From: a virus
Length of the DNA stretch: 36,286 bases
Reading direction: 5' to 3' (one strand)
IMG/VR virus record: IMGVR_UViG_3300028840_000114
Coordinates: 1-36,286 of that record
Part shown: positions 1,100-36,286 of the stretch, piece after piece
How the letters are laid out: each line of letters opens with the position of its first letter
How positions within the stretch are numbered: the stretch's first letter is position 1
Program-made: the position numbers and the translations under genes
Notes under the pieces: generated by a model
What the model saw: only the letters and a program-made list of their open reading frames with translations
What the model was told of the DNA's origin: nothing
The model's database searches: none

Positions 1100-1372
1100 A
1101 TGATCTGGGAAGTGTCTCCACTTTGGTATTATCTTGATCATGTAATAGATAATATGGAAGCCACGATAACTTCCCCACTCAGGGATGTACAACATTTAGA
1201 AGGAAAGACAGATGAAGAAATGCTTTTGGAGTTCGGCACTGACCCTTATGATGAGTGTGATGGCGTTGAGTTCCCCGCTGTTGTCCAGTTTGGCGAAGGC
1301 ATCAGGCTCAGACTCTCGGTCAGAGATATCCATCCTGATTGGTTCGAAACATGTTTCGAAGACGAGTTTTAA
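1100..1372 (+). CDS. Small acidic protein of unknown function (90 aa)
   Basis: I do not recognise this protein. The ATG at 1100 follows the helicase stop by one base and has a good Shine-Dalgarno (GGAGG ending about 8 nt upstream), so I prefer it to a longer open frame that starts inside the helicase gene at 821. The product begins MIWEVSPLWYYLDHVIDN, is rich in Asp and Glu and ends FETCFEDEF. There is no signal peptide or membrane segment. The last 161 nt overlap the start of the next gene in another frame. Both frames look coding, so this is a true overlapping pair or one of them is a relic. The alternative is that only the secreted protein at 1212 is translated. Confidence 0.6.
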   Translation: MIWEVSPLWYYLDHVIDNMEATITSPLRDVQHLEGKTDEEMLLEFGTDPYDECDGVEFPAVVQFGEGIRLRLSVRDIHPDWFETCFEDEF

Positions 1373-1694
1373 TGAGGTCAATCCGGGGGTAGTATATTCG
1401 TACTACCCAGACCGGACAAATGGGTTTCACTTCTTCGGAGGTGGTTATAGGAACTCACTCGATAGAAACTCACTCGTGTTTGGTGTGGGTAACTCGTATG
1501 AAGTACCAACAAACTCGGTACTTACCAGAGTTAACCTCAAAGCAGGGTTGGTTTCTGGGTATAACTCTGACTTTCCAACCCCGGCCCTGCCTGCGATAAT
1601 TCCGCAGGTGGAATTATTTAACTTTATTGTTGTCTCAGTACCAGTGAGTGACGTACCTACAATTGGTTTTGGAATTAAATTGCCGGGGTGGTGA
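1212..1694 (+). CDS. Secreted or outer-membrane-like phage protein with signal peptide (160 aa)
   Basis: The first about 31 residues form a typical Sec signal peptide: MKK, a hydrophobic stretch with LMMSVMALSSPLLSSL, then LAKA-SG as a likely signal peptidase I site. The mature part contains SKHVS, FNEVNPGVVYSYY, GGGYRNSLDRNS, LKAGLVSGY and a C-terminal alternating pattern ending IGFGIKLPGW. This series (NE-NPG, G-Y-NS, GLV-GY) recurs in small exported proteins of phages and Gram-negative bacteria and suggests a small beta-barrel or beta-sandwich at the outer membrane. Its function is not known to me. The start has AGAAGGA about 7 nt upstream. It overlaps the preceding gene by 161 nt in a different frame. 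A role in altering the infected cell surface is possible but is inference. Confidence 0.75.
   Translation: MKKCFWSSALTLMMSVMALSSPLLSSLAKASGSDSRSEISILIGSKHVSKTSFNEVNPGVVYSYYPDRTNGFHFFGGGYRNSLDRNSLVFGVGNSYEVPTNSVLTRVNLKAGLVSGYNSDFPTPALPAIIPQVELFNFIVVSVPVSDVPTIGFGIKLPGW
1343..1360. repeat. Perfect 18-bp palindrome
   Basis: The bases TTCGAAACATGTTTCGAA read identically on both strands, with no interruption. The palindrome lies in the double-coding overlap between the genes at 1100 and 1212. It could be an operator for a dimeric protein, a small RNA hairpin, or chance. The flanking bases (G at 1342, G at 1361) do not pair. Confidence 0.85.
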
Positions 1695-3292: not shown

Positions 3293-3832
3293 ATGACAAG
3301 ATGTGTATTCGATATAGAAGCCGATGGCTTTCTTGATACTATTACAAATATCTGGTGCATAGTTATATATGATTTGCAAACTGATAAGATGAAATCATTC
3401 AGACCAGATAATCTTATTAACGGAATACTGGAGCTGAGTAGATATGACACACTTATTGGTCACAACATTGTTGGTTACGATATACCTGCTGTGCGCATGG
3501 TCATTGATAATCGAATTACGCAGTTCATTAGACAAACAAATGTCCTTGACACACTGGTTACGAGTAGGTATTTGTGGCCTGAGCGTCCTTGGGGTCATTC
3601 TCTTGAAGACTGGGGAACTGTCTTAGGTGAACCTAAAGGAGACTTTAATGATTGGACTCGGTTCTCTGAAGAGATGCTGACCTATTGTGAACAAGATGTC
3701 AGGGTGAATGTGAAAATATTAAAAGCATTGGAGGAAGAGTATGGCGAGAGCATCCCCGGATTTCCAATCTATGATGAAAGCGTTGGAATGCGAGCACAAT
3801 GTGCAGCGTATCATAACCCAGCAGGAGATTAA
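3293..3832 (+). CDS. DNA polymerase, 3'-5' proofreading exonuclease part (T7 gp5-like N-terminal domain)
   Basis: DnaQ-like exonuclease domain that removes misincorporated nucleotides during phage DNA synthesis. Exo I is FDIEADG (Asp7, Glu9), Exo II is GHNIVGYDIP (Asn58, Asp63) and Exo III is TYCEQDV (Tyr131, Asp135), so the catalytic set is complete. The segments WGHSLEDWG and LGEPKGDF match T7 gp5. T7 carries this domain and the polymerase in one chain of 704 residues; here the frame ends after 179 residues, the last about 27 of which do not look like a polymerase. The rest follows in another frame from 3741. GGAGG lies 4 nt before the ATG. The split may be natural, or a +1 frameshift or sequence error may separate one gene into two. 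Confidence 0.9.
   Translation: MTRCVFDIEADGFLDTITNIWCIVIYDLQTDKMKSFRPDNLINGILELSRYDTLIGHNIVGYDIPAVRMVIDNRITQFIRQTNVLDTLVTSRYLWPERPWGHSLEDWGTVLGEPKGDFNDWTRFSEEMLTYCEQDVRVNVKILKALEEEYGESIPGFPIYDESVGMRAQCAAYHNPAGD
3730..3743 (+). promoter_or_regulatory. Internal Shine-Dalgarno and ATG before the polymerase frame
   Basis: GGAGG at 3730-3734 is followed after 6 nt by ATG at 3741, inside the exonuclease gene. It could start independent translation of the polymerase domain. Caution: the same bases encode an ordinary Glu-Glu-Glu-Tyr run in the exonuclease frame, so the match can arise by chance. Confidence 0.55.
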
Positions 3833-5096
3833 TGGTGTCGTATTTAATAAAGCAAGAGCCAGATTCTATATCTACGTGCTACGGGAGAAACAGATTCGAC
3901 TCTACAGAAAGATACGTCCTTTTCTGTCGTCTGAGTACACCTTGCCAAACAAAGGTATACCTGTTTCGAAACCCTTCCTCAAATCAGGTGGCTATACTGC
4001 TCAAGTCTGTAAATGGTACGAAGACCCTTCGGTTGTCTCAGGCCAATTTACACGAGTGGAGTTCGTGGAACCAGACTTGGGGAGCCGTGCTAAGCTTATT
4101 GCCCAGCTCCTCAGACTCGGCTGGCATCCTCAGAACTTCACTATTAAGGGCAATCCGAGACTTACAGTTGATGGGGAACCCTGCCCCTCACTCCTCCAGA
4201 TTGATAGCGAGGTCGGATCGTGGATAGCATCATGGTACATTTATTCACACAGGGAGTCTCAGATTGCTGGATGGCTGAGGAAGCTGCGCCCTGATGGGAA
4301 ATTAACAGCATCGGGTATTACAATAGGCACACCAACATACAGGTTCAGGCATTCTATAGTGGTGAATGTTCCTAAAGCAGCTAGTTATGTTCCCTTTGGG
4401 TGGCAGATGAGAAGTCTGTTCACAGTTCCTAGAGGCCGCAGGCTAGTAGGTCATGATGCCTCTGGGCTTGAGCTCCGTATGCTAGCTCACTATATAAATG
4501 ATGATGACTTCAGTAAGGAGGTAGTAGATGGAGACATCCACACGAAGAACCAAGTTGCAGCAGGACTGCCTACGAGAGATGCGGCAAAGACTTTCATCTA
4601 TGCGTTCAACTATGGAGCAGGAGATGTCAAGATTGGACGAATTGTTGGAGGAGGTAGAAAAGAAGGGAAGCGGATTAAGTCCGAGTTCCTTGCAAATAAT
4701 CCTAAGCTCGCAACCCTCATTGAACAAGCTCAGCGTGCTGCTGGGAGAGGCTATCTCGTTGGGCTCGATGGCCGTAAAATCAGAATGCGTCGGGACAAAG
4801 ATTCCGGACAAGTGCAAGTGCGGAAAGCTCTCAACACATTGCTGCAAGCGGCAGGGGCCACGGTAATGAAGTACTCTATGATTATGCTTGATGAGTGGGA
4901 CAGGATAGAGGGTCTCGACGCTAAGAAAGTTATAGACATGCACGATGAGGGTCAGACAGATGTAGCTAAGGATGATGCAGAGCGCCACGCAGAGCTTGCT
5001 GCTGACAGTGTGAGGGCTGCTGGTGAGTATCTACAGCTAAATGTCCCACTAGCGGGAGAGGCTAAGATTGGGCTTAACTGGGCCCAGACCCACTAA
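3741..5096 (+). CDS. DNA polymerase, family A polymerase part (T7 gp5-like)
   Basis: Palm, fingers and thumb of a family-A replicative polymerase. The domain begins around ALECEHNVQRIITQQEINGVVF. Motif A is GHDASGLELR (Asp239), motif B is RDAAKTFIYAFNYGAG (Arg279, Lys283, Tyr287, Tyr291) and motif C is MHDEGQTD (His401, Asp402, Glu403). The C-terminal GLNWAQTH resembles T7 GPNWAICH, including the terminal His. Residues about 58-131 hold an insertion in the thumb where T7 has its thioredoxin-binding domain; it looks shorter than in T7. The frame overlaps the exonuclease frame by 92 nt and is offset by +1. Either this is a separate subunit started at the internal ATG, or it joins the exonuclease by frameshifting. 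All catalytic residues are present, so it is probably active. Confidence 0.93.
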   Translation: MARASPDFQSMMKALECEHNVQRIITQQEINGVVFNKARARFYIYVLREKQIRLYRKIRPFLSSEYTLPNKGIPVSKPFLKSGGYTAQVCKWYEDPSVVSGQFTRVEFVEPDLGSRAKLIAQLLRLGWHPQNFTIKGNPRLTVDGEPCPSLLQIDSEVGSWIASWYIYSHRESQIAGWLRKLRPDGKLTASGITIGTPTYRFRHSIVVNVPKAASYVPFGWQMRSLFTVPRGRRLVGHDASGLELRMLAHYINDDDFSKEVVDGDIHTKNQVAAGLPTRDAAKTFIYAFNYGAGDVKIGRIVGGGRKEGKRIKSEFLANNPKLATLIEQAQRAAGRGYLVGLDGRKIRMRRDKDSGQVQVRKALNTLLQAAGATVMKYSMIMLDEWDRIEGLDAKKVIDMHDEGQTDVAKDDAERHAELAADSVRAAGEYLQLNVPLAGEAKIGLNWAQTH

Positions 5097-5140
5097 GTGT
5101 AGTAGTTTCTCTAAATTTTCGGTATAATAAGGGTACGCTT
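5097..5140 (+). promoter_or_regulatory. AT-rich gap with a TATAAT box before the sigma gene (tentative promoter)
   Basis: This is the longest gap between genes in this part of the + block. It holds a perfect TATAAT at 5123-5128, but I see no convincing -35 element at 16-18 nt upstream and no extended -10. AAGGG at 5129-5133, 7 nt before the ATG, serves as Shine-Dalgarno. If the box is used, the message would have a very short leader. Confidence 0.3.
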
Positions 5141-5896
5141 ATGAAAATTGATAATGAATTTATTAATAATTATAATGCTCTAGTACGGTCAACCATACGT
5201 GATATGAATATTAAAGATGAAGAAACTCTTGAGCTTCTTTATTCTGATGTATGGATTAAACTTCTAGAACGTCAAGATACTTATGATGAGAGCAGGGGCT
5301 CTGAGTCTACCTTCATTGTGTGGGTAACTCGTTCTGTTGTCTCTCATTATATGGAGAAGTTGAAGGCCAGTGAAGATGTAATGAATACTGGTCTCGCGGT
5401 TAGTCTAGATGCAAAGGCAAGCGATGAACCCGGAGCATCAACTTGGGCAGAGCATATCCCTGATGCTGCTCAAGAGGAACGGACTAACACAAAGCAGATA
5501 GTAGAGAGCCTGTATTTCTACACTGCTAGTATGAAGCCTAATATGCGGGATGTCCTCCGACTGAAACTTGTTGAAGGGTATTCTCATCAGGAAATCGCTG
5601 ATCGTCTTGGTATTGAGCGCAGGTCGTCTGAGACTCTATATCTACGAGGTGTGAAGAAGATTAAAGGCTTACTACGATCCGATGGACGCGGAGAGTTTGA
5701 CAAGAATGCGGGAAAGACGTATCAGGATATGTACAACACACTCCCGCCACAACTGATGTACCCACTTAAGTTTAGGCTAGAAGGGAAGACTTGGGAAGAG
5801 ATTAGTGATCTTACAGGTGAACCTCTCTCTGTCCTTCAGACTAGGGTAAACAAGGCAAAGGATGAACTTCATGACAGATTCGGAGCAACGCTATGA
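5141..5896 (+). CDS. ECF-like sigma-70 family factor with two region-4-like HTH units
   Basis: A 251-residue protein with the layout of a small sigma factor. Residues about 1-75 fit region 2 (LYSDVWIKLLERQDTYDESRG and then FIVWVTRSVVSHYMEKLK, the helix that usually binds core polymerase and the -10 element). Residues about 119-178 form region 4 (MRDVLRLKLVEGYSHQEIADRLGI, then VKKIKGLL). A second similar unit follows at about 199-247 (PPQLMYPLKFRLEGKTWEEISDLTG, then VLQTRVNKAKDELHDRF). Two region-4-like units in one chain is unusual. Its likely role is to redirect host RNA polymerase to phage promoters, which would fit the absence of a phage RNA polymerase in the window. It could also be a sigma-like DNA-binding protein without sigma activity. 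It sits between the polymerase and the ssDNA-binding protein. Confidence 0.75.
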   Translation: MKIDNEFINNYNALVRSTIRDMNIKDEETLELLYSDVWIKLLERQDTYDESRGSESTFIVWVTRSVVSHYMEKLKASEDVMNTGLAVSLDAKASDEPGASTWAEHIPDAAQEERTNTKQIVESLYFYTASMKPNMRDVLRLKLVEGYSHQEIADRLGIERRSSETLYLRGVKKIKGLLRSDGRGEFDKNAGKTYQDMYNTLPPQLMYPLKFRLEGKTWEEISDLTGEPLSVLQTRVNKAKDELHDRFGATL

Positions 5897-6029
5897 TGAA
5901 GATGTTCTAATTAAACAACTTGGTTACAACCCTACTTCTGACCTTCCTGACCACGAGTGGGAAGCGATGAAAAAGCGTAACGAGCTTTCAAAAACTTTAG
6001 AGGAAAACGCTAATGACACTAGTACTTAA
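5871..6029 (+). CDS. Small acidic protein bridging sigma and SSB genes (52 aa)
   Basis: An ATG at 5871 with AAAGGA 8 nt upstream opens a 52-codon frame that overlaps the sigma gene by 26 nt and the next gene by 17 nt. The product starts MTDSEQRYDEDVLIKQLG, then PTSDLPDHEWEAMKKRNELS, and is acidic and hydrophilic. The overlap with both neighbours covers what would otherwise be the only gap, and the codon pattern looks coding. I do not recognise a family. Interaction with the sigma factor, for example as a regulator, is conceivable from position only. Confidence 0.6.
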   Translation: MTDSEQRYDEDVLIKQLGYNPTSDLPDHEWEAMKKRNELSKTLEENANDTST

Positions 6030-8286: not shown

Positions 8287-9061
8287 AGAGCATATAGTAA
8301 TTCCAGACGTACAAACTAAAGAGGGAGTCGATTATGATTATTTGGACAACATCGGACGTTATATCGTTGAGCATCGGCCTGACGTTGTTGTTTGTCTGGG
8401 TGATTTCGCTGATATGGAGTCACTCAGTAGCTATGATCGCGGCACTAAAGGGTTCGAGGGGCGCAGATATTCCAAGGACGTACAAGCGACTCGCAAAGCG
8501 ATGTCGGTCTTACTTGGGCCTCTCAACGACTTCAACCGACGACAGAGGTTAAACAAACAGAAGCAGTATAAACCAGAGATGATCATGACCCTTGGGAACC
8601 ATGAGAATCGAATCAATAGGGCTATTCAAAATGACGCAATCTTGGACGGAACTATATCGACAGACGACCTCGGGTATAAAGAAGCAGGATGGGACGTATA
8701 TGACTTTCTCGACACTGTTACAGTGGACGGAGTCACATATTCTCACTACTTCCCAAGAAGCGGAAGTGGCAGAGTTATGCAAGCGGCTAGAGGAGCACCT
8801 TCAGCAAGAGCTCAGGGTCAGCGAGAAATGCGCTCATGCACTTCTGGACACTTACAAGGACTTGATTTCGATATACATCAGTTGGGAGACCGGAGAATAT
8901 ATAATATTATTGCCGGATCTTGCTATACCCATGACGAGGATTACCTCTCTCCACAAGGAACACAGTACTGGAGAGGGATTATTCATAAGTTCGACGTACA
9001 TGAAGGGATGTACGATCCACTCTTCGTCTCTCTCGACTACCTAGAACGGAGGTATGGCTAA
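8279..9061 (+). CDS. Calcineurin-like metallophosphoesterase
   Basis: A two-metal phosphoesterase. Motifs are VIPDVQ (first metal Asp, with Gln where His is usual), LGDFADME (GD motif), LGNHENR (GNHE) and TSGHLQGLDF (a GHxx variant), followed by IAGSCYTHDEDYLSPQG. I choose ATG 8279 because GAGAGGA lies about 6 nt upstream and it overlaps the HNH stop; an ATG at 8261 is also in frame. With this start the product has 260 residues. The phage substrate is unknown; relatives act on nucleic acid ends, cyclic nucleotides or phosphoproteins. The next gene starts in a TAATG overlap. Confidence 0.85.
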   Translation: MPREHIVIPDVQTKEGVDYDYLDNIGRYIVEHRPDVVVCLGDFADMESLSSYDRGTKGFEGRRYSKDVQATRKAMSVLLGPLNDFNRRQRLNKQKQYKPEMIMTLGNHENRINRAIQNDAILDGTISTDDLGYKEAGWDVYDFLDTVTVDGVTYSHYFPRSGSGRVMQAARGAPSARAQGQREMRSCTSGHLQGLDFDIHQLGDRRIYNIIAGSCYTHDEDYLSPQGTQYWRGIIHKFDVHEGMYDPLFVSLDYLERRYG

Positions 9062-12934: not shown

Positions 12935-14069
12935 TCTTCTGAGCAGTTCCTTCACCAAACTCTTCTTGCCAGACATGCTCTGGTACGTCATCTAGTGCAG
13001 CTTTAAGGGATTCAGGGTCGTGAAGAAATTCACCCTCCTTGAGTCCCTCTGCTCTTTTACGAACACGGGCAGCTCGTTTGGGCTGCTCTCCTTCAATCCT
13101 ACCAGCGACCCTCTCGGCTGCCTCTGCACGTTCTGTGTACTTAGCTGCGTATTCCGGGTCAACCTGCATCCTGAACTTATGCTGAACTGCTCTTGCCTCT
13201 ACCTCTCCGTGGTTGAGAGCATACAGTCTCCATAGATCATCCCTTTCAGCGCTATAGCCCATAGCATCTAGGCGATTCTTTACGACACTGAGATTAGCCC
13301 CATTACTGAAAGCTTCTACTGTCTGTACAGCGTGCTGCATCTCATGAATCATAGTAGAAAGTTCACCAATAGGATCTCCTTCTGAGATATCAAGAGTAAC
13401 TCTCTTCTGTGAAGGACTGAAGCTACCCTTTTGTGTCTCACCCGGCTTGTTCCTTACTACAACTAAGTCATAGTTTCTAAACTCTGGGTAAGCGGCATAA
13501 AGCTCTTCATGATCTAGAACATCACCTACCTTATAGGAAGGAGTCATTCCAGCAGGAGCTTCTCCTTTAGGGGTGAGGAACTGAGGGTCATACTTCCATG
13601 AAGCAGCAGAGTCGTCAATCTCCCACTTAAGATTTCCATCAGGAGTAACCTTAACACCAGATTTCTTAAATGCTTTATTGATGATGTCGGGCTCTACTCC
13701 ATCCCATCTCATCTCCAGAGCTGTATCGTAAGCTACACGTTTAGGATGATCCCAAGGAAGCTTCTGAATAGCATTAGGGCCAGCTAAGATACCAGCCAGC
13801 CCGCTTACCTTGCTCATAGGAGTGACGATATCCATCGCCTGTGCAATAGAATCTTCACTAGGAGTAGAAGCAGGGCCAACCTTCTCACCTCTCATATGAG
13901 CTTCAAGCTTAGCCTTATTCTGAGCATTCAGATCCGCTAGGGGCTTCAACCCAGCCTCAAGGTACTTACCACTCGTCACATCAGAGACGTAAGTTTTGAG
14001 TCCCTCCATGACATCTGTTCCAGTAACAGGGGCAGGCTTCCTTACCTGCCCTCTCATCTTTTTATCCAT
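12900..14069 (-). CDS. Virion-module zincin-like metallopeptidase (polyvalent-protein type)
   Basis: A 389-residue protein with a zinc protease signature: HEMQH at 242-246 (HExxH, in TMIHEMQHAVQTVEAF) and a downstream GEVEAR at 288-293 that can supply the third ligand. These two motifs together mark the zincin-like LPD family of large polyvalent phage proteins. Residues about 114-154 (YDTALEMRWDGVEPDII, then GNLKWEIDDS) match a short module often found beside such domains. No signal peptide. It is the last gene of the late block, directly after two internal virion proteins (start overlapping the upstream stop by one base), so it may be packaged and enter the host with the DNA, or mature other virion proteins. 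The substrate is unknown. Its end overlaps the convergent + strand gene by 35 bp. Confidence 0.75.
   Translation of the reverse strand: MDKKMRGQVRKPAPVTGTDVMEGLKTYVSDVTSGKYLEAGLKPLADLNAQNKAKLEAHMRGEKVGPASTPSEDSIAQAMDIVTPMSKVSGLAGILAGPNAIQKLPWDHPKRVAYDTALEMRWDGVEPDIINKAFKKSGVKVTPDGNLKWEIDDSAASWKYDPQFLTPKGEAPAGMTPSYKVGDVLDHEELYAAYPEFRNYDLVVVRNKPGETQKGSFSPSQKRVTLDISEGDPIGELSTMIHEMQHAVQTVEAFSNGANLSVVKNRLDAMGYSAERDDLWRLYALNHGEVEARAVQHKFRMQVDPEYAAKYTERAEAAERVAGRIEGEQPKRAARVRKRAEGLKEGEFLHDPESLKAALDDVPEHVWQEEFGEGTAQKIMDLRQSLSSK
12903..12939. other. Two overlapping inverted repeats at the convergent junction
   Basis: CTTCGA (12903-12908) pairs with TCGAAG (12921-12926), and GAAGAT (12923-12928) pairs with ATCTTC (12934-12939). 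The hairpins share bases and exclude each other. Neither is followed by a run of T on either strand, so they are not typical intrinsic terminators, yet they lie exactly where the two transcription blocks collide. Confidence 0.4.
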
Positions 14070-16168
14070 TACCTTACTCCGTATAGATTACGAATCATAC
14101 CAAGCACTTCTTCATCATCTCCATACAATTCAATAATCTCATTAGGATCGGCTCCCTGAGTCAGATCATTCAAGACCTTCACAGCTTTCTCATTACCAGC
14201 TACTCCCAGTACCTCAGCAATCTCTCCAGAGCTGGGGGTGATTCCTTTCTCCTGCAGTTTAGAAATACGTTCTGATGGGTTAGAAGTAGAGTCGATAATA
14301 TCCTGTACTTCAAAGCGAGTAGCGCCAGCAGCATCATCTACAATGTTAGCAGTGGTGAAGTTGACACCAGTTCTCAGAGTATTAGAAGCTTTGCGGTAGT
14401 CCTTATGACCACTAGCATGAGCAGCAGCCCTGACAGAATTATTGTAACGATTAGCGTAGCCCTTGTTGAACTTATTCACTACTCCCTGTACACGAGACTT
14501 CAACTCAGGATCAGACTTAACTGCTCCCTCGTTCACTGAGAAGGTCATAAAGCCTTCAGCATCGAAGCTCATAGTTACAGCATCTTTAACACTCAGTCGT
14601 AGATCATTAGGATTAGGACGGCCTACCTGACCACCAACCTTAATCTGACCCAGCTCCATGTTAAGCTTCTGAGTGATGTCATCAGAGATGTCACCAACAA
14701 ACCTACTTACACCATTGGTCACTTTCTCACGATGAGGATTCATCTCAGTGCTCTTAGTTACAGCACCGTAGAAGCCATCACTAGCCGCAAACTTCAGCAT
14801 AGCATCTGCTTCTTCTGGAGTGTAGACAGGGCGATCCATTCCAAGAATACCAGACATAGCTGAAGTAAACTTGAGAGCAGTCTCCCGATCTTCCTGACTA
14901 AGTGAATCCCAATCTGCACTAATAGCAGCAAGGCTATAGTCAGTGATAGACTTCAGTGCATCCTGATAGCCCGGTACATCAGTAGGCATATTAGGTGGGA
15001 AGCCTCCGCCATAGAAGATAAAGCTAGAGATATCAGAGAACATCCTAGCACCTTCTGGGCTCTCAGCAATGTGAGACATATAGAACTGAGTGACTTCTGG
15101 GCCAAATGCCTTACCAGCAGACACGATACGAGCGACTGAAGGGTTCCGCAGCATCTCATTAGTCAGAGTGGAGGTGATCATTTCATTACGGTTGTTAAGC
15201 TGATCAAGCGACATTTCACCAGCCATGACCTTATCCATATCCGAGATGTAGTCTTCAAGCTGCTGACGAGTCTGACCATACATCTCATTACTTACAGTGT
15301 CACCGAATACGGTACGCTGAGTATTCATGTAAGTGTCGAGGTATTCGTTAGCTTTTAAGTTAAACTCTTCACGAGATAACTCTCTGCCAAATTCCTGCTG
15401 GAAGCTCTGTACCTGCTGTTGCAAGTCAAGCTTAAACAGTTCAACACGACCACGTTCAGACTTCTGATAACCTTTGGCACCTTCTACCTTAGCCATTTTA
15501 TCGTCGTTCATATAACGAGTATAGGCAGTAGCTGAACCGTTAATATCAGCAATCTCCATAGCCAGAGAATCTAGGTCAGCAGTCATGAAGCCCGGAATAC
15601 CGAGGTTCATGGCTTCAGTACGGATAGTCTTATCCATATCAACCATAGACTTCTGATCAATCTTCTCCTGAGCCTCAATAATAGATAGGCGGAGTTGGTT
15701 GTCAGACATTACCTGACCGTAGATCTTACGGAAGTCATCAGCATAGCCGGGGAAGTTCTGGTTACGCATCTTCCATTTAGTATCTAGGTGCAACTTCAGC
15801 TCAGTAGTAGACATAGAGCCAGCCTTAGCTGCAGCAATTAAGGAGGCCGCTTCTTCACGAGCCTCCCTAATCATTGGATCATCTTGACTTACCAAAGAAT
15901 CCTCATCTGGAGATCCGAACATCTCACCCTCTGCGGCAGCAATGGTAGCCCTACGATCAAAGAAGTTATCAATGTCACCTTCCAAGTCTTTCTGTAGTTC
16001 AGCAACTTTGATTTCTTTGTGTGCGCTAAGGGCTGTAGTGCCAGCAGTCTCTACGAGTCCAGCAAGAGCAGCACCCTCTGTAGCAGCCGACTGATCTACG
16101 ACAGGCTTACCTGTGTATCCCAAACTGCCAGCAGATTTCTTTTCTTCTGCTCGATAAATAGTAGCCAT
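14069..16168 (-). CDS. Internal virion (ejection) protein, gp15-like by position
   Basis: A 699-residue, mostly helical protein beginning MATIYRAEEKKSAGSLGY. Much of it is charged helix (KEIKVAELQKDLEGDIDNFF, then FKLDLQQQVQSFQQEFGREL). No enzyme motif is visible. T7-like podoviruses store three internal core proteins (gp14, gp15, gp16) that are ejected to form a channel through the envelope. The neighbours here fit that set: a gp14-like protein and a very large protein upstream. The start overlaps the upstream stop by one base. Sequence resemblance to T7 gp15 itself is weak by eye, so the name rests on order, size and composition. Confidence 0.7.
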   Translation of the reverse strand: MATIYRAEEKKSAGSLGYTGKPVVDQSAATEGAALAGLVETAGTTALSAHKEIKVAELQKDLEGDIDNFFDRRATIAAAEGEMFGSPDEDSLVSQDDPMIREAREEAASLIAAAKAGSMSTTELKLHLDTKWKMRNQNFPGYADDFRKIYGQVMSDNQLRLSIIEAQEKIDQKSMVDMDKTIRTEAMNLGIPGFMTADLDSLAMEIADINGSATAYTRYMNDDKMAKVEGAKGYQKSERGRVELFKLDLQQQVQSFQQEFGRELSREEFNLKANEYLDTYMNTQRTVFGDTVSNEMYGQTRQQLEDYISDMDKVMAGEMSLDQLNNRNEMITSTLTNEMLRNPSVARIVSAGKAFGPEVTQFYMSHIAESPEGARMFSDISSFIFYGGGFPPNMPTDVPGYQDALKSITDYSLAAISADWDSLSQEDRETALKFTSAMSGILGMDRPVYTPEEADAMLKFAASDGFYGAVTKSTEMNPHREKVTNGVSRFVGDISDDITQKLNMELGQIKVGGQVGRPNPNDLRLSVKDAVTMSFDAEGFMTFSVNEGAVKSDPELKSRVQGVVNKFNKGYANRYNNSVRAAAHASGHKDYRKASNTLRTGVNFTTANIVDDAAGATRFEVQDIIDSTSNPSERISKLQEKGITPSSGEIAEVLGVAGNEKAVKVLNDLTQGADPNEIIELYGDDEEVLGMIRNLYGVR

Positions 16169-19100
16169 TAATTCAAGCCTCCTCTAGACTCTTTGAGGGC
16201 ATCCAGTGTAGCTTCAACGCCTTCTGGAGCATTTAGGTATTGTGTAAATGTTCTGTATTCTTCTGCAGCAGGAGACTTATAAATCTCTCTGATAACTCCT
16301 GACCAGAAGTTCTCCTCTCCTTTCTGCATCATGCTTCGGGAGAGTTTACTAATAGTACGATAAGCTACCTTCTTCTCTTTAGGTGTGTTGTACATCAGCA
16401 TAAGCTGACGAGTAAACAACATAGCCTTATCAGAATCAGACATATCTGAAGTCTTCATGATACGGTTCATGCCACGGAAGAGATCAGTAACTTCAGATTC
16501 GATCTCAGCTTCCCTACCCTTGCCTGAAGTCTTACCACCACTTACAGACTTGAGACTAAAGAGCTTATCTCTTGCGCTATAGATGTCAGCTTCTAAACCT
16601 GTCTGGAAACCAGTAAGCTTCCACAAGGCCTCAGCAGTATTGACACTACCAACCTCATTACCAAACTTAGAGTTCAGTTTACCAGTTTGTATGGCAACAG
16701 TAGTCTGAGTGATATGACCCATAGCTGGGGAGATCTCAGCCATTGTGTGCAGGGTACGGAGGAAGATATCTTGATTAGTAAAGATCTCATCATCCATAGC
16801 CCAAGCAGTAGTCAGAACATCCCAAGTATCCATTCCCACACCGATAGTTGCAATGGGAGCAGAAACATAAGGACGGTACTCAGGACTTTGAGTAAGCACA
16901 TCCACAAAAGTATGTAGAGTAGCGTCGATGTTACCCATAGGAGCCAAAGACTTCTGAGGACGTACATCTACTTTCTCTCCTGCAGCAATACTCAGAGCCT
17001 GACTTACCAGATAGTCTGACATACCAGTTTTAATTAGCTGAGCCTTCTCAGGCGACATCTCTGGATCAACCTGAGCGATCATGTCATCTACATAGTCACT
17101 GACGATAGGCCATACAGTAGCGCCGAAGATCAGTGTATTACCAGTAGCAAGCTTGATCTTCTCTGCCTTAGTAAAGGCCCTCGATCCACCAGCGAACTGA
17201 GGCCACATACTCATTAACATCTTGTGAGAGTGGCTGAAGAACTGAAGCAGCATAGAACTGAATGCACCAGTAGTGGTGCCCCAATCCTGATAGCCCATCT
17301 TACCAGCAGGTGAGAAGTTCAGTGAGATATCACGAGCATCTGCCTGAATTTGAGCTGAAGCCTTCTGAGTCTTCCAACTCTTGCCGGGGTTCTTCTGCAT
17401 CCAACGATGACGAGCGAAGAGCCAATGACCAAGAATGTTGATGTTTTCGCCGTACTCAAAGCCCTTACGAGGCACTGCAATCGACTGACCAGCACCACGC
17501 ATAGCCTTAGTACCTATATCAGCAAACTGAGGCGCTAGAGGGCTGTGGAGAGCTTCTGAGCCGGGGTTCAAGAAGACGTGTTTCTGTACTGCATCAAGCA
17601 GACCAGTCTTCTCAAATTCCTTAGCCAGCTCCTGTCCCTTCTTAGATCCAAACTTACCACCTGATATAAGTACCATAGCTACATCAGAGAAGTCAGCAAT
17701 GAATCCAGTAGTGGCATACACAGGATGCAGAATAGACATCTGTACCATCTGTGTAGGCTGTAGCAGTAAGTGCTTGATAGGGTTCAGAGCAATGAAGAGG
17801 TTGAATGCAGCCTTCTTCATAGAGTTCATAGGAGCTGTATCAGCAGCCTTAGAAGCCAGAGTCTTCAACAGGGAAGCGCCGGGGAAGTTCTTATGGTCAA
17901 GGATCTCAGCAACAGTCAGCATGTAGCTCTTCCATACCTGACTAACTTCTGAGGGCATACCCCTTACCATATTAATGAACTGCCAGTGAGCCCTAGCCTT
18001 AGCCCTTACAGTAGGATCAGTGACCTGCTTCAAGAAGCTATCCAACTCTGAGATAGAGATAGGGAACTTCTCATAACCGTGTGGAGCACCAAAGGTCTTC
18101 ATCCATGCAGCAGCCTGACTATCGAAGAAAGGCTTAACAGCTTCACGATGAGAGACAGCATTGATGGTGCGAGCCATAGCTTCGAGAGGGTTCTCAATAG
18201 CAGCATGACTACCTTCATGGTTCAGGAGGCGATCACCACGACGCTTCTGAGCAGACATATATCCACCAGTCAGTCGTTCGTAATCAAGCTCTTCCTTACT
18301 CATGTGCTTGATGGCATCCTTACGGTCAAGGATAGACAGCTCACCATCATACTCAGTATGCTTCGCAATGAAAGCTTCAGCTTCCTTACGAGAGCCAGTC
18401 ACAGCGACAGTCTCTACATGACCACGAGTGCTCTCTCTGCCATTAACCTTAGCAGTCCTAGAACCTTTAAGCTGGACAAAGAACTCATTATCTTTGTAGA
18501 TGCGAGAGATATGTCCATGACGATACTTGAGAGGAGTGTGAGTCAGGTTGCCAATACGTGTCTTCTGGTTAGGTTGAACCAGTACATATTCATAGACATC
18601 GTCTACTTCCTTAATAGGACGATAGGCTTCATGCCTACGACCAAGGATAGCGCCTTTACCATACAGCTTCTCAAGTTCATCAAAGCCACTAATCTGCTGG
18701 AGGCTATTGCGAGTTACGTTATAAACTACGATAGGCTTCTCAACAACCTTAGCAGCGATCTCTAGGTCAAGAGGCTTCATAGGCTTGTCAATAATGTTAC
18801 CAGCCTTATCATAGAGAGACTGCCAACCTTCTTTCAGCATCAACCTACGAGTGTCTTCGTTAGCCAGAGCCCATAGTTCATCCTGTACAGCTCGGAACTC
18901 ATAGTAAGCCTGCATAGCACCGCTGTCGATAGCGATACCAAACTGCTCACGAAGTTCAGCAGGAGTGAAGACTTTTTCTACACGATCACCTTCCTGCAAG
19001 GCATCCATAACCTGATGGAAAGCCTTCTTATCTTCAATACGCTTAGCAGAGTCAGCAACAATCTTCTGCATACGTGTTTCCATAGAAGCCTGACGATCCC

Positions 19101-21375: not shown

Positions 21376-23988
21376 TTATGGTCTCATACCGCCAGAAGCG
21401 ACAATACTCCAACCAAGAAGTTTCATATCCTTCCCTCGTTCACTTTCAATGTGAATGGAAAGACTACGTCCACGTCCCCTAAGCTTACTCTTAGTGACAA
21501 CCACGCCTTGACCATAATCGAAGCTATCAATAGCAGTTTCGGCATACCAATGTCGAGGTAGTCTGTAAGCTTGGAACTGTGTACCCCATTTACCTGAGTT
21601 AGCAGAGTTTGCCCAATCCCACTGAGATCTGACCAAGCAACTAGAAGGATTGTCAGGATCACCTGCATCTAGTTCTTGTTCCGTCTGGTCAAAGAACATG
21701 AGCAAGTAGTGGCTTTGCTTCTTAGTAGCCTGAGATCCCATCAGGTCAAAGCCTGTTACTAAGTAGCTAGAGAAGTCATATCCATTGCCGTCATCATCTC
21801 TCCAATCCACATAGGCTGAATCGTTGAAGTTGGCGAAGGTCATGAACCAATATCCTGCCAAAGATGGGTTAGTCCTCTGTTGACCAATAGCTAGATACTT
21901 AGACTGTACAAAAGAATCCCTAGTTGTCCTACTAACGGCTATAACATCATTACCCAGACTGTCTACAACTAGATCACCGTTAGATTTCCTAACATTGTCC
22001 TCAGTTGAGATAGCTGTTACATCCTGAGTATTAAATACACCAGCAATGAACGGTCTCAAGCCATTAGAAGCTGGGCCACCTAGAGGAAGCTCATACTTAT
22101 ACCAAGCCTGTAGAACAAGATCAAACCTCAGTATCATGTTGTAGTTAGTAGGTGTAACTTCCTTATTAGCAAGGAGTTCAGCATAATCTAGATCAGTATT
22201 GATCAGCCATTCGACAGTCTTAGTGGTAGGGTCGTAATGTCCCTTAACGTACTTCTTATTCTCACTAGGAATGTCATTAAACAGCGACTGAATCGTAACC
22301 TCTGAGATATTAGAAGATGCGAATGCCTGTGACACTTCGTTAGCAGCAACAGTGTAGATACCACCTTTAGCCCAATAGAAGATCTGGTTCTCTGCAGCAA
22401 CTACGGAGAATGGCCCCCACGCACCGACAGAACTAACCTTATCTACTCGGTAAGCTGTAGCAGTAAATGTACCGTCAATACCGCTAATCTTCCACACACC
22501 ATTATTACCAAAGACAAAGAGATCAGAGCCCATCGGCACCAGTGTAACACATCTATCCATTTCTGGAATTACAATATATCCACCATCAGTGTCAACTAGA
22601 TCGCTCTGATGCTCTGAAGTTGGGTCAGCCTCTTGAAAGCATTCGCCAACAAACTCAGCTCTTTCAAGTGTCTTACTATAGAAGACATAGCTAGAATACT
22701 GACCACCATCAATACCAGAATACCAAGCTCTCCCTGCATAGCCAGCAACAGTCTCGAATCGACGTTCTTCAATCTCTTCCTCTAGTACATCAGTTGAGAG
22801 ATTGTAATGAACCCTACCACCACTAAGAACCAAGGTCTTATTACTAACTCTAGAGCCTCCCCATCCAGTGGGGATATCACCATCCCATTTCCACCTGAAT
22901 GTGATCGTGTTCGTGGTAACACTATTTACTTTGTAGTACTTGTTATTAAGGTTATCTTTCTCATGTTTAATGACGATACTACGAGTTCCTACACTCCCAC
23001 TTTCCCAATCTTCCTCTTCCCAAGTAGCAGTCTGTTTAACACCCTTTAGCTTAAACTCATCACCAACCACCATGCTGTGAGCAATACCAAAATCTACAGT
23101 GATTAGGCCATTACTATAGCTAATCGTGTTAGCTGGTAGAGTGTTGGTGAAGGAGAGGTTTGCATACTTCTTATGAAGTATGTTGTAAATAAACTTACCT
23201 TTAGGTGCAGGAGTATTACCAAAGTACTGCTTATCTAGCTGTGCAGCAGTGAAGGCTCCTGTTGAGTCCTTACCGAGATGCTGAATATCCGCATTACTCG
23301 GGTAAGCAGACTTTGCCGTATTATAGGTAGTCAGGTTAGCTGTAAGCCAGCCTTGATTATACAGGTTATAATAGTGTTCTGTATTCATCTCAGCAGTAGG
23401 AGGACGATAATCGATCTCGAACTCATCCTCCAAGCCTGTGAAGTCTCTCACCTCAACTGTAATAGTCGAAAGGGTAAATGACCTTTGATCTGGATCATAC
23501 TTAATAAGGATCGGATCAATGGCAGCAGATGTAACAATTAAATACCCTTTAACATTTGCTACTGATATAGGGGACATCCTAAGCATTGCGTCTGTAGCTT
23601 CAGGGGCTTGGTAGTATGGGAGGTATACTAAGAAATCCAACTTATTCTGAGAAATAGCACTCCCTTCCATAGCATAAAAGTAGATGTACTTACCCTGCTG
23701 AACTACAGCAAAATCATGACCCCCTCTATTACCAGCAGACTTCCATTCAAAGGACATATAGATCTGTTCCTGAACAATCGTATCATTATAATAGTTCAGA
23801 AAGTGACTAGCATCCGAATACAGGAACTCATATCCGATACCAAGTCTACGGTATCTAGCTCCGTTGCGTTGCAGTTCAAAGTTGGCTTCATCAAGGGAAG
23901 CATTAGCTGGGTACGTTAGAGGACTTGCTTCAGTGATAAGACCTTGTACGAACGAATTGTAATCAGCAACTCCGCCTCGTTTAGCCAT
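21376..23988 (-). CDS. Tail tubular protein B / nozzle (T7 gp12-like)
   Basis: An 870-residue beta-rich structural protein. The N-terminus, NSFVQGLITEASPLTYPANA and then SLDEANFELQRNGARYRRLG, is the characteristic opening of podovirus tail nozzle proteins. Later parts contain propeller-like repeats such as VTLVPMGSDLFVFGNNGVWKI. It forms the distal tail tube below the adaptor. T7 gp12 has 794 residues, so this one is slightly longer. The next gene in transcription is the gp14-like protein. Confidence 0.9.
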   Translation of the reverse strand: MAKRGGVADYNSFVQGLITEASPLTYPANASLDEANFELQRNGARYRRLGIGYEFLYSDASHFLNYYNDTIVQEQIYMSFEWKSAGNRGGHDFAVVQQGKYIYFYAMEGSAISQNKLDFLVYLPYYQAPEATDAMLRMSPISVANVKGYLIVTSAAIDPILIKYDPDQRSFTLSTITVEVRDFTGLEDEFEIDYRPPTAEMNTEHYYNLYNQGWLTANLTTYNTAKSAYPSNADIQHLGKDSTGAFTAAQLDKQYFGNTPAPKGKFIYNILHKKYANLSFTNTLPANTISYSNGLITVDFGIAHSMVVGDEFKLKGVKQTATWEEEDWESGSVGTRSIVIKHEKDNLNNKYYKVNSVTTNTITFRWKWDGDIPTGWGGSRVSNKTLVLSGGRVHYNLSTDVLEEEIEERRFETVAGYAGRAWYSGIDGGQYSSYVFYSKTLERAEFVGECFQEADPTSEHQSDLVDTDGGYIVIPEMDRCVTLVPMGSDLFVFGNNGVWKISGIDGTFTATAYRVDKVSSVGAWGPFSVVAAENQIFYWAKGGIYTVAANEVSQAFASSNISEVTIQSLFNDIPSENKKYVKGHYDPTTKTVEWLINTDLDYAELLANKEVTPTNYNMILRFDLVLQAWYKYELPLGGPASNGLRPFIAGVFNTQDVTAISTEDNVRKSNGDLVVDSLGNDVIAVSRTTRDSFVQSKYLAIGQQRTNPSLAGYWFMTFANFNDSAYVDWRDDDGNGYDFSSYLVTGFDLMGSQATKKQSHYLLMFFDQTEQELDAGDPDNPSSCLVRSQWDWANSANSGKWGTQFQAYRLPRHWYAETAIDSFDYGQGVVVTKSKLRGRGRSLSIHIESERGKDMKLLGWSIVASGGMRP

Positions 23989-25690: not shown

Positions 25691-25722
25691 TATAAAAGAT
25701 GGGGAGAGCCGAAGCCCTCCCC
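25691..25722 (-). terminator. Strong intrinsic terminator between capsid and tail genes
   Basis: Read on the - strand, GGGGAGGGC pairs with GCTCTCCCC (9 bp, one G-U pair) around a TTCG tetraloop, occupying 25701-25722, and is followed by ATCTTTTATA. This is a textbook Rho-independent terminator shape. It lies 9 bp after the capsid-neighbour gene and before the head-fibre and tail genes, so some polymerases probably stop here and others read through. Confidence 0.9.
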
Positions 25723-28363: not shown

Positions 28364-30122
28364 TTGGATCCTCCGTGCTGGTCATACCTTCAGCAGTTAG
28401 CTGATCTTCAGCAGTCTGAACAAGGGCTTGTGTCTCTTTCTGTTCTGCAATAGCCACATTAGGACGGAAGATATCAAAGCGATTAAGCCCAAACGTATCT
28501 TCAAGCAGCTTAGCAAGTTGCTTAGCAGAAGTGTGCGGAGCAATCATCTGTCCTACTGGAGAGTTAAACAGGCCAGTCAGATTCTGAACAAGCTGACTTC
28601 TAGCTGCGAAGTGACGAGCACCTACAGGACGAATCTTTCCGTTCGCTGTGAGGTCTTCCCTACTCACTTCTACAAACTTCTGAACACCGAAGTCAGAGTC
28701 GAGAGTACGTGCTACATCAGTGGCTACCATATTCCTCTTAGCCATTTCAAGCATCCTATTCAGGAGAGGCTCAAGGAACTCTGTCTCGAACTGAGTGATC
28801 TTATATTGGAAGATACGACTAGCTGCATTCTCTAACTGACTCACCTCGTAAGCTGTCTTCTCACCGGGAGTACGGAAGCCAAGAGCCTGCTTAGGAGCAC
28901 CTGCCATCTCTTCCATTTTTGCTTCTAGCATCGCAATCTGGTTCTCAGCGGTAATAACACCATTCAGATTACGACCCATTTCCTCGATCTCACCATCATC
29001 ACCGAGGTCAATTTCTTCTCCGGGGCCCCAGATAAACTCTTCTACGTTACCACGAATCTTAAGAGGCGGAAACACTGCCAGATCCATAGCATCAGATTTC
29101 AAGTTTTCAAGGTGGTCAATCCTGTACTGCATACCAACAAGATTGTCCAGTGGGCCCATGCCTACGAGGTTGTCTGGACGATTACGCCAGCCTACGTGGA
29201 CATAGTCTGTGTTAGGAATCCAACTCTTGCGTGGAGCATTGCGAGCTACGTGGAGCCTATCCACAATTGTAATTGAGCGATCAACCAGAAGCTCCCCAGT
29301 GCGGGTATCGTGGATGTCGCCCTCGAACTCAAGGATCTCGACATAAGGGCTATTGTAGTAATCACCGAGGCTGTTAAAGCCATCGACTACAAAGCCAAGT
29401 GACTTATCGATATCACTATACTCATAGCGAGAGAGAAGAGCACGAGTTTGTTCTACCTTCTCAATAATATCTGAGTAGTAGCCAAGCTCAGGCTTCTCTA
29501 AAATATCTTTCTTCAACTGGCCCAAAGTCCTCATCTTACGGACTATTTTGGGAGTCTTCTCAAAAGAAGAGGAAGTGTTCTCAAACACAATGTCAAGAGG
29601 ACTTACCCGAACAGCCTTGGGGCCGATGTAGCCGGGAATCAAATCACCAGTGATGGGATCAGTCTTCTGTTCATTAATGAACTCTACAGTAGCGAAAGCG
29701 TTCCCGTAATCAATATAGTCAGTAAGGCACTGACGAATGACACGTCGAAAACCTCCATCACGTAGCTTAGTTGACATATATGCTTCAATTGCTTCTGCCT
29801 TCTTCTTTAGATTATCATCAAGTGAAAACGCCTCCCATTTCAGCCAGTCGTCATTAGGGAACAGTGCCATTTCGTAGTTTGCTTGCAGGTTATCTCTAAT
29901 CTGCGTAAGCTTAGGGATCACCGTCTTGTTTCGCCAAGGAAGTGCTCCTGCTGTAGTCATCGAGGTATCTGTAGCAAAGAGATACTGACGAATTTCCAGT
30001 TTCTCATCTAGCCACGGCCTGCGATCCTGCTCATAGCGATTGTATTTATATGCGATACCTTGGGCGATGCTATCTGAAGCAGCCAACTGCTGTAGCTCTA
30101 GTACCTTATCATTACTTGACAT
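28350..30122 (-). CDS. Portal protein / head-tail connector (T7 gp8-like)
   Basis: A 590-residue portal subunit forming the twelve-fold ring through which DNA enters and leaves the head. Characteristic parts are RPWLDEKLEIRQYLFATDT, PWRNKTVIPKLTQIRDNL, LFPNDDWLKWEA, DYIDYGNAFATVEF and GRNLNGVITAENQIAMLEAKMEEM followed by GAPKQALGFRTPGEKTAYEVSQ. T7 gp8 has 536 residues. AGGAG precedes the start by 5 nt, 8 bp after the terminase stop. The C-terminus ends in an acidic, Thr/Ser-rich tail (TSTEDPNAQF). Confidence 0.93.
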   Translation of the reverse strand: MSSNDKVLELQQLAASDSIAQGIAYKYNRYEQDRRPWLDEKLEIRQYLFATDTSMTTAGALPWRNKTVIPKLTQIRDNLQANYEMALFPNDDWLKWEAFSLDDNLKKKAEAIEAYMSTKLRDGGFRRVIRQCLTDYIDYGNAFATVEFINEQKTDPITGDLIPGYIGPKAVRVSPLDIVFENTSSSFEKTPKIVRKMRTLGQLKKDILEKPELGYYSDIIEKVEQTRALLSRYEYSDIDKSLGFVVDGFNSLGDYYNSPYVEILEFEGDIHDTRTGELLVDRSITIVDRLHVARNAPRKSWIPNTDYVHVGWRNRPDNLVGMGPLDNLVGMQYRIDHLENLKSDAMDLAVFPPLKIRGNVEEFIWGPGEEIDLGDDGEIEEMGRNLNGVITAENQIAMLEAKMEEMAGAPKQALGFRTPGEKTAYEVSQLENAASRIFQYKITQFETEFLEPLLNRMLEMAKRNMVATDVARTLDSDFGVQKFVEVSREDLTANGKIRPVGARHFAARSQLVQNLTGLFNSPVGQMIAPHTSAKQLAKLLEDTFGLNRFDIFRPNVAIAEQKETQALVQTAEDQLTAEGMTSTEDPNAQF

Positions 30123-34578: not shown

Positions 34579-36286
34579 TCATTGGAATATAATCCCGCCA
34601 GAATACACAGTATTGACTGCCGCCATATTAATAGACGTTCCTCCAGTCGCACCGTTAATAGTTTGAGTTGACCCAAGAAATATCTGATACTCATTACCTA
34701 CTGTATTGATGTTTGAGTTGGAGCAATCTGCTCGTGACTGCCCCTCACACCTAACACCGACACTGCCAGCAGTTGAGTTAGTCAGAGTCATGAATCGACA
34801 ATTTAGAGTAGAGGCGTTTTGAGCTAGTATATTAGAATTACCATAACTAGAGGTGATTGTAGCCGTATGCAAATTAATCTTACAACTTGACGCAGCAAGA
34901 GCAACCCTGCCAGTAAAATTCGATATATTAGTATCTCTCGCATTTATCGAGCTACTGCTATCTGCCTGGAGGCAACCAACACCATTAGTAAAGGTAGCCG
35001 ATCTCACATCTATGCTAGAACTACGCGAACTACTTACAGCCAGTACTGTAGTGTTGTTTATCGTTGCGATATTAGCGTGAATAGAAGAACTACCACTAGC
35101 AGACAGTCCAGTTGCCGAACCACTAGCAGTACCAGCCTCGAAATTAATACTGCTATTAAACTCAGCAAGCGCACCAAGAGTAGTACAGGAGCTCGCATCA
35201 GCAGCTCTAGCATTGATACGTGAAGTATCAGTAGCGCGAATACCATAGTTACAACTGTCCGCAATCAGAGACTCAGCGTTCATATTTGAGCCATCATTGA
35301 CCCACAGCCCAACGTCCCCAGCCCCACTTACATCAGCAAAAGAACAATCACCACTAGACACCCTATGGACAACAATTCCATATCTACCAGCACCAGAAAA
35401 GTCGGAACCTCTAGCCCATAGCTCTGATTGATACGCCTGAATACCATCAGCGCCAGCGTTTCGTATACCACCACTACAAAGCAGTTTAGACTGATTTAAA
35501 AAGAATCCGTTTCGTTCTGTAGCAGAACCAGAAGAATCCATAACAAACTGCACAGAGATGGTTGGCAGTGTAGCTTTGTAGGCATAGAACGCTGGATAAA
35601 CCCAACCACCATCTAGAGCCTCTGTTAAAGCACTGCGTGTGATGGACACAGTAGCGTCAACAGAAGTTAAATGAATCCAGCCAAGGTCTTTATATGTGAC
35701 TGATACTTGCTCTGCCATCACAAAGCCTGACTGAAGCTCTAGCGTCACAAATGGGTCATGTATACCAACCCCATCAGCAGTAGACTGATTCACTGGATAT
35801 TTGGCAGACAGATCATCAAGAGCAGCCTGAATAGTTGCATAGTCACCAGTAGCACCAACAGTATAAGTGACTGAACTATTGACTAGCGGAGCAACATCAG
35901 CTTTAGAATAAACATCAAGATTAGTACGAGCTGTAGCGGCGTCACTAACACCAGAAAGATCAGCAACATCCGACTGTGTAGCATAGTCAGGCGGTAGAGC
36001 ATTGTGATCTACGTTGTAGGTGAGGACAGTGACAATATCATCAGCAGCGGCACCTGATGTTAGAGCGATGGTCTTAGTAGCTACTGTGTACGTGTACTCT
36101 GTATCTGACAGAGCAGCGCCATTTAGGAACACCTGAGCATATTTAGCTTCATATGGGAGAATGAAGTCAGTCTGAGCTGCTGTAGCCGCTGGGAATGAAT
36201 AACTAGACACACCACCAACTAGACCCACTGTCACCTCTACCCAGCCAGTGCCATCATAAACCTTCATAGTTTGAGAATTAGTGTTC
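34579..36286 (-). CDS. Tailspike/tail fibre with pectate-lyase-like beta-helix (5' end outside window)
   Basis: The frame is open past the right edge (codons NTNSQT precede MKVYDGTGWVEV), so the start lies outside. Numbering is from the ATG at 36267. Residues 1-88 form a beta-rich N-terminal region. A linker with DVYSKADVAPL follows, then SSVTYTVGATGDYATIQAAL (131-150), which opens many pectate-lyase-like beta-helices. From about residue 255 to 532 the chain is a series of units of about 22-25 residues with a recurring SSSI-A/D-R-like core, for example SSSIHANIATINNTTVLAV, SSSIDVRSATFTNGVGCLQ and SSSINARDTNISNFTGRVAL. These are the rungs of a right-handed beta-helix. Such spikes bind and often cut surface polysaccharide. 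Catalytic residues could not be assigned. Confidence 0.88.
   Translation of the reverse strand, partial: NTNSQTMKVYDGTGWVEVTVGLVGGVSSYSFPAATAAQTDFILPYEAKYAQVFLNGAALSDTEYTYTVATKTIALTSGAAADDIVTVLTYNVDHNALPPDYATQSDVADLSGVSDAATARTNLDVYSKADVAPLVNSSVTYTVGATGDYATIQAALDDLSAKYPVNQSTADGVGIHDPFVTLELQSGFVMAEQVSVTYKDLGWIHLTSVDATVSITRSALTEALDGGWVYPAFYAYKATLPTISVQFVMDSSGSATERNGFFLNQSKLLCSGGIRNAGADGIQAYQSELWARGSDFSGAGRYGIVVHRVSSGDCSFADVSGAGDVGLWVNDGSNMNAESLIADSCNYGIRATDTSRINARAADASSCTTLGALAEFNSSINFEAGTASGSATGLSASGSSSIHANIATINNTTVLAVSSSRSSSIDVRSATFTNGVGCLQADSSSSINARDTNISNFTGRVALAASSCKINLHTATITSSYGNSNILAQNASTLNCRFMTLTNSTAGSVGVRCEGQSRADCSNSNINTVGNEYQIFLGSTQTINGATGGTSINMAAVNTVYSGGIIFQ

Follow-up and report, generated by a model that had tools for sequence, protein, structure and literature searches.

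A phage sigma factor with two region-4 units, a probable late switch of a Zobellviridae-type podovirus

The stretch of DNA analyzed here, referred to as the window, comprises 36,286 nt and corresponds to positions 1 to 36,286 of the virus record IMGVR_UViG_3300028840_000114. It is a fragment of a phage genome, with a partial primase/helicase as its first ORF and a last ORF that is open at the contig end. A 251-aa sigma factor gene directly follows the gene of a family A DNA polymerase (Table 1), in keeping with an earlier note that had placed it in the replication block, and the two are separated by a gap of 44 bp amid tightly packed replication genes. Based on the major capsid protein (60-85% identity), the terminase and the gene order, the nearest relatives of the window are Zobellviridae. 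The closest record is IMGVR_UViG_3300040801_000306 (48.6 kb, referred to as G001), with identities to the window of 85% for the capsid, 83% for the terminase and 70% for the DNA polymerase. The DNA polymerase of G001 is a single 613-aa ORF spanning both parts that are split in the window; the split may be a natural frameshift, a split gene or a sequencing error. The 55-aa ORF that overlaps the 3' end of the sigma gene has no Pfam match and is 45% identical to its G001 counterpart over 44 aa (E = 1.2e-7). Its product could work together with the sigma factor or antagonize it. An Rfam search gave no matches.

Table 1. Features of the window, with E values for domains cut out and scanned alone against Pfam and superpositions of the predicted structure
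Feature	Position	Strand	Remarks
ORF matching phrog_3600 (annotated PagP-like, lipid A acylation)	1212-1694	+	between primase/helicase and DNA polymerase; G001 counterpart 32% identical
Family A DNA polymerase	3293-5096	+	two overlapping ORFs: exonuclease 3293-3832, polymerase 3741-5096
Candidate promoter GTAGTAGTTT-N8-TTTCGGTATAATA (TTTCGG-TATAAT-A)	5099-5129	+	in the gap before the sigma gene
Phage sigma factor gene	5141..5896	+	251 aa; region 2, region-4 unit 1, region-4 unit 2
Sigma region 2, residues 1-80	5141..5380	+	PF04542 E 1.5e-7; 4lup Z 10.3, 1.9 Å
Closest sigma70-like sequence in the window, TTGATA-17-TATAAT	5148-5176	+	11/12; inside the first sigma codons
Linker, residues 81-116, acidic, low-confidence	5381..5488	+	net charge -5; pLDDT <50 for residues 75-123
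Region-4 unit 1, residues 117-181, basic (+5)	5489..5683	+	PF08281 E 9.9e-10; 5fgm Z 9.9
Region-4 unit 2, residues 191-249, near-neutral	5711..5887	+	PF08281 E 6e-4; 8jzt Z 9.9, 1.4 Å
55-aa ORF, overlaps the sigma gene 3' end	5862..6029	+	G001 counterpart at the same place, 44945-45109
Strong hairpin GGGGAGGGCTTCGGCTCTCCCC, then T-rich tail	25701-25722	-	between late genes, immediately downstream of the capsid genes' region; G001 has GAGGGGGCTTCGGCTCTCTCCC, a near-identical hairpin, in the corresponding position
Last ORF	34579-36267	-	open at the contig end

A Pfam scan of the whole protein detects Sigma70_r2 at residues 8-74 (E = 9.5e-7, above the cut-off) and Sigma70_r4_2 in two stretches (E = 4.3e-14). 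Cut out and scanned alone, region 2 and each of the two units are matched again (Table 1), unit 1 above the cut-off and unit 2 with a significant match that reaches 19.9 bits against the curated Pfam cut-off of 25.7 for Sigma70_r4_2; unit 2 of the G001 homolog alone (E = 0.013) is likewise under the family cut-off. The NCBIfam profile TIGR02937 (sigma70-ECF) is matched with 65.6 bits against a cut-off of 42.9. The protein carries both the region 2 fold and profile and the region 4 helix-turn-helix of the sigma-70 family. As in ECF (group IV) factors, it consists of regions 2 and 4 only, with no match to region 1.1 and none in Pfam to region 3, but it departs from their single region 4 in having two units. 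The length of the linker before unit 1 is usual for the spacing of regions 2 and 4 in ECF sigma factors. By homology, recognition and melting of the -10 element and binding to beta' may be assigned to region 2. Unit 1 was also considered as a region-3-like domain, which is ruled out by its strong region 4 match.

The AlphaFold2 models of the window protein and its G001 homolog were built from an input alignment of these two sequences only, and the placement of the domains relative to each other lies outside the models (pTM 0.35 and 0.51). In the window protein, separate helical units are predicted after region 2 at residues 109-181 (unit 1, block pLDDT mostly 72-87) and 194-247 (unit 2, 77-82). 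VIA-align superposes region 2 of the model on that of sigmaE (4lup), unit 1 on region 4 of SigR (5fgm; 2.0 Å over 65 residues) and of the sigmaE-DNA complex (2h27; Z 9.1, 2.1 Å), and unit 2 on region 4 of SigF (8jzt; 56 residues), SigD (3vfz; Z 9.8, 2.0 Å) and Taq sigmaA (1rio; Z 8.4, 1.4 Å). Both units are seen again in the model of the G001 homolog, which superposes on 5fgm and 2h27 with Z values of 9.8 and 9.4 and has unit 2 as its most confident part (block pLDDT 81-94). The unit 2 models of both homologs deviate from solved sigma region 4 structures by 1.4-2.3 Å. Separate Pfam scans, models and superpositions agree, confirming that the ORF encodes two distinct region-4 units downstream of a sigma-70 region 2, as had been claimed; the boundaries proposed for the units, residues 119-178 and 199-247, were correct within about 10 residues, and neither a lack of units matching sigma region 4 nor a missing region 2 fold was seen. 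It should be mentioned that the top Foldseek match, 9n9q_C (an RpoE of 'RNA-guided transcription'), was rejected as a precedent for a double region 4, the one stretch matched by sequence being a single region 4 near its C-terminus.

The identity between the window protein and its G001 homolog is 48% in region 2, 25% in unit 1 and 46% in unit 2, and the net charge in the two homologs is +5/+7 for unit 1 and -1/+3 for unit 2. The conservation indicates that unit 2 is kept by selection. Being less basic and more conserved than unit 1, unit 2 appears to have a protein partner, most simply the polymerase. A profile search of solved structures found that E. coli sigmaE region 4 (2h27) is best matched by unit 2 and not by unit 1; as this is a DNA-binding domain, the match leaves room for DNA contact by unit 2. 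The likeness of the two units to each other is weak (shuffle Z of 3.4 for the window protein and 6.3 for the G001 homolog) and would fit an old duplication or two sources. With the two-sequence profile, six matches at E <= 1e-7 were obtained in 398 genomes of one bacterial phylum, none reaching unit 2, in a survey with a loose first pass and a limited number of candidates. One other genome has 21 sigma-like places, none of which spans both units. An exact-word search of part of the literature returned no relevant paper on a duplicated sigma4. These results suggest that a double region 4 is rare in sigma factors, as far as searched.

Within the viral contigs, a direct scan found no close relatives of the window protein, and a scan with the homolog or the two-sequence profile found G001 only; the phage collection held no near match. 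The G001 homolog (247 aa) has 38% identity along its full length, and Pfam detects both of its units. A homolog in a further genome, G017 (241 aa, about 27-30% identical), has region 2, one region 4 and an unrelated C-terminus. In all three phages the sigma gene lies between the DNA polymerase gene and a phrog_862 gene. Several other Zobellviridae encode ECF-like sigma factors of ~160 aa with one region 4; in CW02 and T2S2-k141_370465, the gene annotated as a sigma factor is located before the DNA polymerase. In the two Cobavirinae checked, a sigma gene would not fit at the position that it has in the window, and the ORF after the DNA polymerase has the size of the phrog_862 gene. The identity of about 37-38% between the sigma factors of the window and G001, compared to 62-84% for the neighboring genes, fits a fast co-evolving pair of sigma factor and promoter.

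The earlier note had described the phage as having no visible RNA polymerase gene. None was recognized, and to this extent the statement stands, although the 36-kb fragment alone says little on the matter. The RNA polymerase profile PF00940 gave no match, though its positive controls also gave no signal, and the larger unassigned early ORFs of G001 that were tested gave matches to amidoligase, glutamine amidotransferase or ATP-grasp families or no match. Genes for COOH-NH2 ligase, amidoligase, glutamine amidotransferase and ATP-grasp proteins are clustered at 12984-18741 in the early region of G001, and clusters of this type are also annotated in CW02 and ctOsX528.

A common motif before the late - strand genes, which the earlier note had proposed to look for, was found in G001, the nearest complete relative. 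The motif GTAGGGATTT-N8-TTGGCGTATAATA occurs exactly twice in this genome, with 23/23 fixed bases each. One copy, at 44170 on the + strand, lies in the gap that corresponds to that of the window and precedes the sigma gene (44220); the other, at 28961 on the - strand, precedes the long virion operon that extends on this strand from 28669 down to 3367. Comparison of the two leaders yields a score of 40.4, whereas shuffled pairs average 21.9 (sd 3.0, 0/300), and the wrong-strand control was not significant (240/300). The motif was not found in other viral contigs. What the two copies have in common is limited to one -35-like and one -10-like block; no conserved block is present further upstream. 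The late leader also carries ordinary sigma70-like matches. In G017, with its single-region-4 homolog, the motif differs, being GATTAGACA-N13-TTGGTAATAT, with copies at 22410 on the + strand (sigma gene at 22464), at 5730 on the - strand (- strand genes from 5668) and, with one mismatch, at 8401 on the - strand. It was obtained from an unbiased intergenic pair scan with exact pattern counting, and was not picked by the generic 31-bp leader comparison (47/300). As read from the sequence, transcripts from the G001 and G017 motifs are predicted to begin some 14-16 nt ahead of the sigma start codon and to include a Shine-Dalgarno-like AAGG. In CW02, a GTAGAGATT...ACTAT motif is present twice on the - strand, once directly ahead of the scaffold and capsid genes.

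The late-operon leader of the window lies off the contig; a motif shared with late genes is seen in G001, with an analogue in G017. The candidate promoter before the window sigma gene has the same spacing and -10 as the G001 motif and 17/23 of its fixed bases (6 mismatches). The similarity of the window sigma leader to the G001 sigma leader is beaten by 5/300 shuffle pairs, and that to the G001 late leader by 37/300. Its -10 is so near the ATG that a transcript from it would have only some 6 nt ahead of the start codon, with no Shine-Dalgarno. With moderate support, the candidate can be regarded as a weaker cousin of the G001 motif.

That sigma gene and late operon of G001 are preceded by one and the same bipartite motif supports the role in the early-to-late switch that had been suggested for this protein. 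We consider it probable that the ECF-like sigma factor of this Zobellviridae-type lytic podovirus is a self-amplifying late switch acting on the host core polymerase. The host holoenzyme would transcribe the early and replication genes, and the sigma factor would at first be made from transcripts running on out of the DNA polymerase operon, and later from its own promoter, in a positive feedback. Together with host core RNA polymerase, it would recognize a phage-specific bipartite promoter before its own gene and the - strand virion operon, and this phage holoenzyme would transcribe the late operon. Region 2 would open the TATAAT-like -10, and the basic unit 1, at the end of its ECF-length linker, would rest on the beta flap, where it reads the -35-like block. 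Unit 2, on a tether of about 10 residues, would provide a stronger grip on the core polymerase (the flap or a neighboring surface) or on upstream DNA, with no sequence specificity. The scheme starts from what is observed, namely the fold and sequence of the three domains, the conservation of unit 2, the synteny, the shared promoter of G001 and its analogue in G017. We infer the steps that go beyond a promoter shared by sigma gene and late operon, as we do recognition of the promoter by the sigma factor, the timing, the application of the scheme to the window phage and all roles given to unit 2.

Several points speak against such a late switch: TATAAT, present here without a mismatch, is the -10 of host housekeeping promoters and could thus serve host sigma70; the window has one copy only, which is imperfect and would give the very short leader described above; the leader comparisons between window and G001 are beaten by some shuffle pairs; and the G001 late leader has sigma70-like matches as well. 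The shared motif could instead be a middle-type promoter of host sigma70 with a phage activator on the GTAGGGATTT block, the sigma factor being a product of that promoter class with other targets. T4 MotA, in sigma appropriation, acts with its box plus TATAAT. An explanation of this kind, which we regard as unlikely, would agree with the exact TATAAT of the window and G001 next to a -35 block that is not TTGACA, and with the TAGACA (5/6 to TTGACA) in the -35 block of G017, 17 bp from the -10. However, the -10 varies from TATAAT to TAATAT/TAACAT in G017 and a ACTATATTA-like form in CW02, for which use by host sigma70 gives no reason; no activator was identified, and the sigma gene is directly behind the motif. 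That motif and sigma factor differ together among the phages favors recognition by a phage factor over host sigma70.

Other alternatives concern unit 2. The charges and conservation of the two units, as seen in two sequences, would suit a division of labor by domain duplication, in which unit 1 reads the -35 block and unit 2 holds the beta flap, the host flap being constant while promoter blocks drift. We find this rather unlikely; the linker length puts unit 1 at the normal region 4 site on the flap, and it is unit 2 that best matches sigmaE region 4, a DNA-binding domain. Unit 2, with its region-4 fold and helix-turn-helix, could also read a second promoter element, as the earlier note had suggested, such that a three-part promoter would be needed. 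This proposal seems quite improbable: the G001 copies share two blocks with nothing upstream, and the single-region-4 homolog of G017 goes with blocks of equal size, a weak comparison of two sites. On these few sites, there is no support for a second DNA element dedicated to unit 2, and unit 2 most likely does not read a DNA sequence of its own. It is also very improbable that unit 2 is a degenerate, functionless leftover of a duplication. Its Pfam scores alone under the family cut-off would be expected of such a leftover, but unit 2 is far more identical than unit 1 (46% vs 25%) and is the best-modeled part of the G001 homolog.

The double region 4 of this sigma factor is real and, as far as searched, rare; its setting makes the protein a likely late switch, and it is a variant on a known phage sigma type rather than a new kind of system. 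What is new here is the promoter pair of G001, with one copy ahead of the sigma gene and one ahead of the late operon. Phage sigma factors are models of polymerase reprogramming, and a two-region-4 factor could be used to ask which of the functions of region 4 can be relocated or be shared between domains. If region 4 was duplicated and its copies divided flap binding and -35 reading between them, which we hold to be doubtful, this would be a natural system separating holoenzyme assembly from promoter recognition. Promoter pairs whose motif changes with the sigma factor are ready-made test templates, and may explain the switch to late expression in Zobellviridae without a recognizable RNA polymerase.

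Among known factors, E. coli sigmaE (RpoE) and the group IV/ECF sigma factors share the region 2 and region 4 folds, with region 3 or 1.1 not found, and both units superpose on their region 4; unlike the window protein, they have one region 4 and other -10 and -35 consensus sequences. The phage late sigma factor gp55 of T4 has the region 2 fold (7d7c chain F against residues 2-75, Z 8.9). In T4, gp33 and the sliding clamp serve instead of a normal region 4, of which the window protein has two units. CW02 gp21 (161 aa) and T2S2-k141_370465 ORF24 are, like the window protein, encoded in the replication block of Zobellviridae and combine an ECF-like region 2 with region 4. On its - strand, CW02 carries a promoter-like motif, GTAGAGATTT..., in more than one copy, one of which precedes scaffold and capsid. 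In contrast to the window, the two proteins have a single region 4 and their genes precede the DNA polymerase; they are barely detectable by sequence (profile E of 1e-4 to 1e-3). The phiEco32 gp36 (sigma-36) is an ECF-family late sigma factor of a podovirus that uses host core polymerase; its middle and late promoters have tAATGTATAtA in common (PMC4281155). The sigma gene of SU10, a close relative of phiEco32 with an identical protein, has a host-type promoter (PMC4281155). Although phiEco32 belongs to another phage group and the gp36 motif is one -10-like block, it is to gp36 that the switch proposed for the window phage is likened.
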